Below, piece by piece: positions 3,748-10,754 of a stretch of 10,754 bases of DNA. How positions within the stretch are numbered: the stretch's first letter is position 1; the number at the start of each line of letters is the position of its first letter. The stretch spans positions 1 through 10,754 of the forward strand of contig JAIPJR010000080.1 in assembly GCA_021734045.1 (NCBI GenBank), written 5' to 3'. Both the position numbers and the translations under genes were made by a program. The notes below the pieces were generated by a model that worked only from the letters and a program-made list of their open reading frames with translations, was not told the origin of the DNA and ran no database searches. Source of the DNA: Fidelibacterota bacterium. Lineage in GTDB: Bacteria > Fidelibacterota > UBA8477.

Positions 3748-3759
3748 GGATGATGATTG
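3745..3759 (+). promoter_or_regulatory. Ribosome-binding site and TTG start of the EEP gene
   Basis: AAGGA (3746-3750) lies 6 nt before a TTG at 3757 and overlaps the acylase stop codon TAA (3745-3747). The frame just upstream of the TTG is closed by two TGA codons (3751-3756), and the next in-frame ATG (near 3880) would remove the signal peptide and first strand. TTG is therefore the only sensible start as the sequence stands. Two ATG codons at 3750 and 3753 are in another frame and open only 16 codons, ending in TAG. Confidence 0.65.
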
Positions 3760-4731
3760 GGAAAATATTGCACCAAAGCAGCCGGGTTCTTATTGATTAG
3801 CGCGCTTATCCAGGCTCAACCGCTCAATGTGGTGACGATTAATGTGTGGTCCGGGTTGGATTATATCGGTTATCTGAAGATGGGTGAGTATGAAACGCCG
3901 GAGCATCGGGAAGCGCGGTATCAGGCGTTGCTTGCGGAGCTCAGGCAGATAGAACCAGATATCCTTGGATTAAACGAAGCTAATAAAGTACCTCATTACG
4001 CAGAACGCATTGCCCGGGACCTGGGCATGGACCAATTCCATCATTTAGGGATCGGTGGTGTGCGTGCCGGGCCGGTTGGACTGCCGGTGAATTTGCGGGA
4101 AGGTGATGTGATTCTGGCTAAGCCGGAACTTTCTTTGAAATGGGCCGGCCGCCTGCAATTATCGGGCGGACCGGTGGGAAAATGGTTCACTTTTCACACC
4201 ACGGATGCCACGCAGGTGGTTGCTGGTTCGGTGCAGGTTGGCGGACGAACGGTTTACCTCTTTGTGACGCACTGGCATGCTTCCCCTTTTCTTACACCGG
4301 AGCATTTAACCCTTTGGCGGGCGGATTCGATGGCCGGGGATATCACACCGGAGCGCTACGCGGCAAACAGGCGGGAAGCGGAAGAGGGGCAGCGCTGGCG
4401 AGAGCGTGAATCCGTGAAAATGCTGAAATACATAAATGAAATCGCTGGCGATGCACCGGTGATACTTATGGGGGACTTTAACGCCAGGCGGGGTATGCCG
4501 GAGGTTGAGCGCTATATCCGGGCCGGGTTTGTTGATGTTTACGCAGAATTAAACGAAGCGCCCGGGTACACCTGGGATGATGTCCTGAACAGCAACATCA
4601 TTCAATATCAATTACCTGAAAATGAGACTACAAAACCACGCCGGCGACACCGGATTGATTTCATATTTGCGCGAGGTGACTGGGAGCTGATTGAATCAAA
4701 GGTGGTATTGATTAGCCGGTTAATGGCGTGA
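3757..4731 (+). CDS. Secreted endonuclease/exonuclease/phosphatase (EEP) family hydrolase, frameshifted at the 3' end
   Basis: The frame encodes 324 residues. Residues 1-21 (basic start, then AGFLLISALIQA) look like a signal peptide, so the enzyme probably acts outside the cytoplasm. EEP motifs follow in order: NVVTINVWSG strand (about 24-33), metal-binding Glu74 in ILGLNEAN, THWH at 171-174, GDFNA with Asp240 and Asn242, and RIDFIF with Asp301. This superfamily cleaves phosphodiester or phosphomonoester bonds with divalent metal; members include DNase I-like nucleases, sphingomyelinases and inositol phosphatases. The final motif, Ser-Asp-His with the catalytic His, is absent from this frame. 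It occurs a few bases further on in the next frame (4737-4745). One extra base near 4717-4721 would restore a protein of about 342 residues. As read, the product should be inactive. It starts 9 bases after the acylase stop, so the two genes are likely cotranscribed. The true substrate is unknown. Confidence 0.85.
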   Translation: MGKYCTKAAGFLLISALIQAQPLNVVTINVWSGLDYIGYLKMGEYETPEHREARYQALLAELRQIEPDILGLNEANKVPHYAERIARDLGMDQFHHLGIGGVRAGPVGLPVNLREGDVILAKPELSLKWAGRLQLSGGPVGKWFTFHTTDATQVVAGSVQVGGRTVYLFVTHWHASPFLTPEHLTLWRADSMAGDITPERYAANRREAEEGQRWRERESVKMLKYINEIAGDAPVILMGDFNARRGMPEVERYIRAGFVDVYAELNEAPGYTWDDVLNSNIIQYQLPENETTKPRRRHRIDFIFARGDWELIESKVVLISRLMA

Positions 4732-4784
4732 TGCCTTCTGATCATTTTGGTGTCCTGGGGCGCTTGAAATTGCGTTCGAAATAA
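4716..4784 (+). pseudogene. Out-of-frame C-terminal remnant of the EEP hydrolase (SDHFGV motif)
   Basis: In the frame one base back from the EEP reading frame, codons 4719-4781 read V-N-G-V-M-P-S-D-H-F-G-V-L-G-R-L-K-L-R-S-K, followed by TAA at 4782-4784. PSDHFGVL is the classic last strand and catalytic His of EEP enzymes. A TAG at 4713-4715 closes this frame upstream, so it cannot be an independent gene. The frame change must lie between 4716 and 4731, most simply as one lost G in the CCGG at 4716-4719. The restored join would be R-V-N-G-V-M-P-S-D-H-F-G-V. Confidence 0.85.
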
Positions 4785-9200: not shown

Positions 9201-9341
9201 CGGGTGGTCATTGGCGGCCTGTTGAGCGCTACACTCATTACGCTGGTGTTAATTCCGGTGATCTATGCCGTTTTTGAAAAACGCCTGCGGTCCCGGAATG
9301 CCATTTCAAAATCGCATCAATCCATTGAAAGAACCTCCTGA
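6219..9341 (+). CDS. RND family efflux pump, inner-membrane permease (AcrB-like, HAE type)
   Basis: This 1040-residue protein has the usual length and layout of proton-driven multidrug RND pumps: TM1 at about 11-30, a porter domain, TM2-TM6 at about 333-482, a cytoplasmic linker, TM7 at about 528-547, a second porter domain, and TM8-TM12 from about 865. The porter motifs YPTISVITGYGNVGPQEIE and DVAANDIRDRID are typical. In TM4 the relay segment reads GMLVDNAIVVLEN: Asp398 matches AcrB Asp407, but the Asp408 position is Asn399. In TM10 GIVVNNAILLVDY has Asn930 at the AcrB Lys940 position. Arg961 matches AcrB Arg971. The VDNAI/VVNNAI pattern is known from a broad subgroup, so the pump is probably functional with a reduced relay. 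The GTG start overlaps the adaptor stop by 4 bases, with GGAG 8 nt upstream. Adaptor and channel genes flank it, which supports a complete tripartite exporter. Hydrophobic or amphiphilic compounds are the likely class of substrate; metal pump (CusA-like) features are not seen. Confidence 0.96.
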   Translation: MSIARGPINRPILTAIIFLIIILLGSVSLSRLSIDLMPEISYPTISVITGYGNVGPQEIEESVTRPIEEALAAVQGVEEINSTSSEGRSLVRVSFAWGTDLDVAANDIRDRIDRVLGRLPEDLERPQIRKFDPSAFPIIILGVSSNLNPLDLRQLIDDQVKYRIERLPGVAALDIWGGLSREIHVDLQADKLKALGLSTDVILASLRNENMNVPAGVYQKGNMDILVRTLGEYASIEEISNTVITTRQGAPILIKDVATVSDSWEEVTQLVRINGEPGLRISVNKQSGANTVTVAEAVKAEMERINRDIPQIKLLPIIDTSKYIKQSINNVGTSTILGGMLAVVILFLFLRNISSTFIIATAIPISVVATFGVMYFGGFTLNIITFGGLALGIGMLVDNAIVVLENIYRHRESGKTTKASADIGTGEVASAIIASTLTTLVVFFPVVFIRGMSGIMFQQMAYVVSFSLLCSLLVALTLVPMLASRFLHYQAAQEHQKLSRLRRIYTASEVVLSKVEQRYTRILNWALGHKRTVVFTSLGLFIASILMVRLIGVELMPAADESEVRINLEMAVGTRLAVIDQATKTVEDIIRKEVPERITMFSRIGGGGWRSTGGHTAQIRVTVVPRAERNRSSEEIANHLRQALKGIPGVTIRARAGQGLFLLRMGTGSATSVDVEVRGYDLATANELAQQVRAVVERVPGVTDVEISREEGSPEQIIRIDRQKAADLGLSVSRIGVALQTAIGGTHASYYRDGGKQYRILVRLSEKDRGDLNELLDLTVVNNRGEPVILRNVVNVVNAEGPTRIERKDQERIINVEANFTKRDMGSVVSDIRDAIQTIPVPKGFVLLFGGDYEEQQKSFGELLWGLILAILLVYMVMAGQFESWRDPFVVLFAIPMGLIGVVLTMILTGTIFSMQAFIGAIMLAGIVVNNAILLVDYTNQLRRDHGMDLLDAIRTSGARRLRPILMTTLTTILGLIPLSFGFGEGGEAQAPLARVVIGGLLSATLITLVLIPVIYAVFEKRLRSRNAISKSHQSIERTS

Positions 9342-9345
9342 CCGT

Positions 9346-10754
9346 ATGAAAACAGCTTCTTTTCTTATCCTGACCTTCGTGGTGAGTATCACAAATCTGT
9401 CAGCCCAGGTTAATGGCCGGCCGTCAGCCAATCCGGCTAATCTGGATACACTGGCCATTGACATTAACACGGCCATTGTCACCGGTCTGGAAAACAACCC
9501 CACGATTCTGGTGAAAAAATTAGCACCTGTACTGAGTGAAACGGCGGTGAAGGAGCAAAAAGGCGTCTTTGATCCCACGGTCACTGCCAGCGTGCAGCGC
9601 AGTCAATCCCAGTCTCAGCGGCGTCTGGGTGCTTCTGCCAATCCATTTGACATTAAGGATACCACCACGACCGCCACAGTTGGCATTCAACAGGCATTAC
9701 CCACCGGGACGCGGATTAATTTTACTGGCGGGATGAGCGGCTCCGTATCCAATCTCTACACAGATCAATACGCCAGTAATCTGGACCTGACCGTGTCCCA
9801 GTCACTGCTGCAGGGGTTTGGTCCGGGAGCCAATCTGGCCAATATCCGCAAAGCGCAGATCGATGTGGATATCACCGAATCCGAACTGAAAGGGGTGGCT
9901 GAGGCGGTAACGGCTGACATCGAAGCTGCTTACTGGAATCTCTACCTCACCGCTCAGGAAATTCAGATTCAGACCAGCTCGCTGGCGCTTGCGCAAAAAC
10001 AATTACAGGAGACCCGTGAGCGGGTGAATGTGGGGAAGTTGGCGGATTTGGAAATGGCCGCTGTCAGTGCAGAAGTGGCTGCCCGACGTAGTCAATTAAT
10101 TGATGCCGAGAGTCGGCACGAACAGGCGCGTTTGCGCTTTATTTATCTGGTTTTTCCCAACCAGCCGTCCGTCTGGGACCGGTATCCCCTGCCTGTGAAT
10201 ACACCGGTTTTGCCCGCCGATTCCCTGGATCCGGTGGGCGTGCATACCGAATTGGGATTGAAATACCGACCGGACCTGATTCAGGCCAGATTGGGTTTGC
10301 AGAAGCAGGATTTGGCTGTCACCCAGACCCGTAACGGATTATTGCCCAAGCTGGATTTATTCATTTCGCTGGGGAAAACCAATTATGCCGCCACTTTATC
10401 CGATGCCACGCCGGATTTGGGAAGTCCCTACATGCAGATGAGTACGGGTTTAAATTTTACCATGCCCATTCCCAATCGTCAGTCATCAGCACAACTACAC
10501 CGGGCGCGGGTCTCCCGCGAGCAACAGGAACTGGCGGTGGGTAACATGGAGAAACAGGTCATCCTGGACATTCGTTCCAAATATGTTGAAGTGTTGCGCG
10601 CCCGCCAGCAGGTGGAGGCTACCCGGGTGACGCGTCAGTTACAGGAAGAAAAACTGCTGGCTGAGCAGGAAAAATTCCGAGTGGGTAAGTCCACCAATAT
10701 TCTGGTGCTGCAGGCGCAGCGGGATTTCACCGCCAGTCAATTGGACGAAGCGCG
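9346..10754 (+). CDS. TolC-family outer-membrane efflux channel (3' end outside window)
   Basis: An ATG at 9346, four bases after the pump stop, opens a frame that stays open to the window edge (469 complete codons). Residues 1-22 form a signal peptide (MKTASF, hydrophobic core, cleavage likely after LSAQ). The body has the two-fold outer-membrane efflux protein (OEP) repeat: a first unit with beta-strand segments at about 95-155 ending in the typical QSLLQGFGPGANLANIRKA, followed by long alpha-helices (about 165-270) that line the periplasmic tunnel. A second unit begins near 305 (KYRPDLIQARLGLQKQDL) with strands at about 330-375 and helices after that. TolC-family proteins are usually 430-550 residues, so only the last helices are missing. 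It completes the adaptor-pump-channel set as the outer-membrane exit duct. There is no good ribosome-binding site close to the ATG, so translation is probably coupled to the pump gene. Confidence 0.93.
   Translation, partial: MKTASFLILTFVVSITNLSAQVNGRPSANPANLDTLAIDINTAIVTGLENNPTILVKKLAPVLSETAVKEQKGVFDPTVTASVQRSQSQSQRRLGASANPFDIKDTTTTATVGIQQALPTGTRINFTGGMSGSVSNLYTDQYASNLDLTVSQSLLQGFGPGANLANIRKAQIDVDITESELKGVAEAVTADIEAAYWNLYLTAQEIQIQTSSLALAQKQLQETRERVNVGKLADLEMAAVSAEVAARRSQLIDAESRHEQARLRFIYLVFPNQPSVWDRYPLPVNTPVLPADSLDPVGVHTELGLKYRPDLIQARLGLQKQDLAVTQTRNGLLPKLDLFISLGKTNYAATLSDATPDLGSPYMQMSTGLNFTMPIPNRQSSAQLHRARVSREQQELAVGNMEKQVILDIRSKYVEVLRARQQVEATRVTRQLQEEKLLAEQEKFRVGKSTNILVLQAQRDFTASQLDEA

Follow-up and report, generated by a model that had tools for sequence, protein, structure and literature searches.

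A gene of the Exo_endo_phos (EEP) superfamily is separated, in the genome analyzed here (an uncultured Neomarinimicrobiota bacterium), from the codons for its own catalytic C terminus by a single missing base. We consider it probable that the gene worked until very recently, encoding a secreted phosphodiesterase/phosphatase of the EEP fold, and that a real, recent loss of one base broke it. The window (the whole stretch of DNA analyzed, 10,754 nucleotides) is the entire contig 49 of a 2.54-Mb assembly of 119 contigs that is 92% complete, and the species is represented by one genome. The appropriate annotation is a frameshifted, possibly pseudogenized EEP gene rather than a natural 324-aa enzyme.

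The EEP reading frame ends before the Ser-Asp-His strand

The truncated frame runs from a TTG start at 3757 to a TGA at 4729 to 4731 on the forward strand and encodes 324 aa. Its product scores 61.5 bits against the PF03372 profile, above the curated cut-off of 24.5, and covers profile positions 1 to 215 of 225, with the C-terminal end alone absent; the match of an intact relative spans the full profile (1 to 225). The N-terminal motifs that supply the Asn and Glu metal ligands (INVWSG and LNEAN) are present in the product and invariant in relatives, and the THWHA motif with the central His and the GDFN motif are present as well. The C-terminal Ser-Asp-His (SDH) catalytic strand is absent from the 324-aa product and is instead encoded one frame over in the DNA, where the −1 frame from 4731 reads MPSDHFGVLGRLKLRSK and then TAA at 4782 to 4784. 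Because this strand is missing from the product, we filed the gene as a broken EEP gene. The severed segment as a whole (PVNGVMPSDHFGVLGRLKLRSK plus TAA, 4716 to 4784, forward strand, −1 frame) is identical to the nearest relative at 20 of 22 residues. A first-pass annotation had described an EEP frame that ends at 4731 without SDH and a tail one frame over that closes with TAA at 4782, an arrangement confirmed by the open reading frames, the PF03372 match, and the relatives. Judged by eye, the hydrophobic N terminus of the product resembles a signal peptide, which suggests that the protein is exported or secreted.

Intact relatives retain the complete enzyme

The nearest relative, Candidatus Neomarinimicrobiota bacterium isolate Tobar14m-G39 (G001), belongs to the same genus, and a scan of genome contigs returned this same-genus relative alone. 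Its orthologue is about 85% identical to the window gene, has the same TTG start, and encodes 342 aa, the length that the first-pass annotation had predicted for the restored product. A second orthologue from the genus (G002, 345 aa, about 66% identical) also has the same TTG start and a similar ending through PSDHFGV, and relatives from other families within the phylum are 345 to 370 aa long. All of these intact relatives, within the genus and beyond it, end in SDH[FY]G. The G001 protein ends KGIMPSDHFGVLGRLKLRSK, and its last 17 residues, from the M to the end, are the same as those of the window tail, which indicates homology and not chance. Residues S328, D329, and H330 (G001 numbering) are invariant across 6/6 intact sequences, as are Asn29, Glu74, His172, Asp240/Asn242, and Asp301 among the intact relatives. 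These orthologues from the genus support the proposal that loss of one base severed the EEP gene from its SDH end.

We modeled the structure of the intact G001 protein from a six-sequence alignment (mean pLDDT, 77; pTM, 0.80). The model has the EEP fold, and its predicted last strand (residues 332 to 339) lies directly after SDH, so the truncated product would have neither the histidine nor the closing strand. The best Foldseek matches to the model are the catalytic domains of TDP2 (E of ~1e-17, target-normalized TM of ~0.75), and the TDP2 profile match covers the WD..N.N, R.D, and PSDH segments. However, identity between TDP2 and the intact relative is 17 to 18%, the relative is bacterial with an N-terminal hydrophobic segment suggesting export, and the likeness of fold gives no substrate. 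Among solved structures, the best sequence match is 3TEB, a bacterial endonuclease/exonuclease/phosphatase with unassigned substrate (profile E of 7.9e-12, SDHFG end aligned), which is distant from the EEP protein. Neutral sphingomyelinase and bacterial sphingomyelinase C share the fold superfamily and are weaker matches than TDP2 and 3TEB in both the sequence and the fold search; in the fold matches to the G001 model, nocturnin, CNOT6L, and neutral sphingomyelinase rank below TDP2. The assignment to the EEP superfamily (PF03372) is based on the profile and on catalytic residues common to the intact relatives, and the window copy differs from these in stopping before the SDH strand.

The missing base lies upstream of the CCGG

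We scored every single-gap placement against G001 by mismatch count. Four placements of a 1-base deletion are equally good, after 4709, 4710, 4711, or 4713, and the lesion thus maps to 4709 to 4714 on the forward strand (window GTATT-GATTAGCCGG against GTATTCAATCAGCCGG in G001). No homopolymer is present at the site, and two substitutions relative to G001 fall in the same 9 bases as the gap. The first-pass annotation had proposed a base missing from the CCGG at 4716 to 4719 and a shift confined to 4716 to 4731, with a TAG at 4713, in the frame of the tail, as the upstream limit. The CCGG is unchanged in the window and in both same-genus relatives, and all four gap placements lie upstream of it. 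The TAG (4713 to 4715, forward strand) shares the reading frame of the severed tail and is homologous to CAG (Gln) in the nearest relative. When the gap is placed after 4713, the deletion itself creates this TAG and a single event is enough; each of the other three placements also requires CAG to have become TAG, a second inactivating (nonsense) change. The loss of a single base may therefore not be the full account. It also follows that the TAG was misleading as a boundary, since either the deletion or a second change produced it. The earlier observation was correct and its cause misplaced, and close relatives can relocate a lesion that is unplaceable from a single sequence.

In our proposed sequence of events, one base would have been lost at 4709 to 4714 in the window genome. 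Translation would then stay in the ancestral frame until about residue 318, pass through a few unrelated codons, and end at the TGA at 4729 to 4731, so that the final beta strand, which carries the invariant Asp-His pair, would never be made. Because the SDH histidine has an established role in EEP enzymes, catalysis has presumably been lost.

Age of the break: very recent, if not an artifact

In the alignment with G001, which covers ~9.1 kb of coding DNA, the single base at the lesion is the sole gap of any length. Up to the lesion (codons 1 to 316), the EEP gene has a dS of ~0.97, a dN of ~0.09, and a dN/dS of ~0.10. The 22 codons of the severed tail carry 5.5 synonymous and 2.5 nonsynonymous differences (dN/dS of 0.12). 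Amino acid changes found only in the window lineage stand to those found only in its sister at 20:10 for the EEP gene; the intact acylase gene beside it gives 16:7, and the EEP gene is thus not decaying faster than its neighbor. In a rough Poisson estimate that assigns half of dS to the branch of the window lineage, a tail drifting for half of that branch would be expected to gain ~12 extra nonsynonymous changes (P[≤3] of ~0.003), whereas drift for one tenth of the branch is compatible with the data. The constrained tail and the lack of any rate excess led us to reject an old pseudogene. With mostly synonymous change in the tail and a dN/dS of ~0.1 in the gene, the break is either very recent or an artifact. 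The first-pass annotation had offered a newly inactivated gene or an assembly error, and both readings survive, each implying a very recent event.

Real mutation, assembly error, and other explanations

We regard it as possible, though not probable, that the organism's gene is intact and that the contig dropped one base through an assembly or consensus error, for example at low coverage or where strain variants were merged. Assembly artifacts account for many apparent bacterial pseudogenes (PMC11017572), the indel is single and isolated, and the lack of decay past the lesion, with the tail still constrained, is what an error would equally give. However, the surroundings of the lesion fit an error less well: it lies outside a homopolymer, with two substitutions close by and an independent nonsense change in three of the four placements. 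The assembly also shows few frameshifts overall. Comparing ~0.95 Mb from each of the two genomes yielded 276 and 271 orthologue pairs that could be tested, with five raw frameshift candidates in the window genome and five in the sister. When these were sorted by eye, about half were artifacts or weak; in the window genome, we rejected an open reading frame crossing a tRNA-like stretch (L040/L095), an apparent upstream start extension (L053), and a low-identity pair (L110/L100). About two convincing cases remained in the window genome, with roughly as many in the sister, so credible frameshifts affect ~1% of the 276 gene pairs and are rare in both assemblies. The second convincing case is a single-base frameshift on contig 7 (L036) near 16779 to 16782, where the orthologue of a 266-aa G001 open reading frame (L102, 8073 to 8874) is split between frames with halves that are 79 to 85% identical. 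An indel-rich assembly is therefore unsupported, and the few frameshifts together with the nonhomopolymer site lean toward a real mutation. On balance, the organism itself probably carries the lesion as a recent mutation, with an assembly error the less likely cause.

Explanations in which the cell still makes a useful product fare much worse. Programmed −1 frameshifting around 4716 to 4731, or stop-start reinitiation at the TGATG at 4729 to 4733, could in principle yield the SDH segment or the full enzyme, and the TGA/ATG overlap there and the preserved downstream segment speak for it. We nevertheless consider it very improbable: the relatives all encode the protein in a single frame, and hence there is no conserved recoding site; the TAG at 4713 restricts the slip window to 4716 to 4731, within which no slippery heptamer was recognized by eye; and a separate 17-aa peptide would need to assemble with the truncated fold. 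That the truncated protein is naturally short and serves another function is scarcely credible; this reading would account for the continued constraint on codons 1 to 316 but not for the equal constraint on the tail. Moreover, all six intact relatives keep the SDH motif and none ends naturally before it, an ending that the first-pass annotation had named as evidence against a severed gene. There is no sign of programmed frameshifting, and whether by mutation or by assembly error, this is an ordinary disrupted accessory gene.

Distribution and genomic context

An EEP gene match was found in 8/60 genomes searched (including the window genome) and in 0/20 genomes from the sister family within the order; the EEP gene is accessory. 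Five other PF03372 genes lie elsewhere in the window genome, and loss of this one is probably tolerable. In the window, a repeat-bearing protein gene is followed by a penicillin-amidase family (acylase) gene, the EEP gene, and genes for HlyD, AcrB-type, and outer-membrane efflux proteins. The acylase gene (PF01804; 1345 to 3747, forward strand) is intact and directly upstream of the EEP gene. The two are side by side in 3/3 genomes of the genus, with the efflux genes downstream of the pair in only 2/3, and in searches of two sister-family genomes, acylases were present but EEP matches were not. The association of the acylase and EEP genes may be functional.

The repeat-bearing protein at 3 to 1046 is truncated by the contig start, is built of units of ~100 residues (YDFK..., TYSVY.AWW), and has no Pfam match. 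Near 1100 to 1140, 3′ of it, an inverted repeat followed through by a T run resembles a terminator. Divergence from the relative is uneven along the contig: the outer-membrane efflux gene (9265 to 10754) is 92.6% identical in DNA, compared with 80 to 83% for the acylase, EEP, and HlyD genes.
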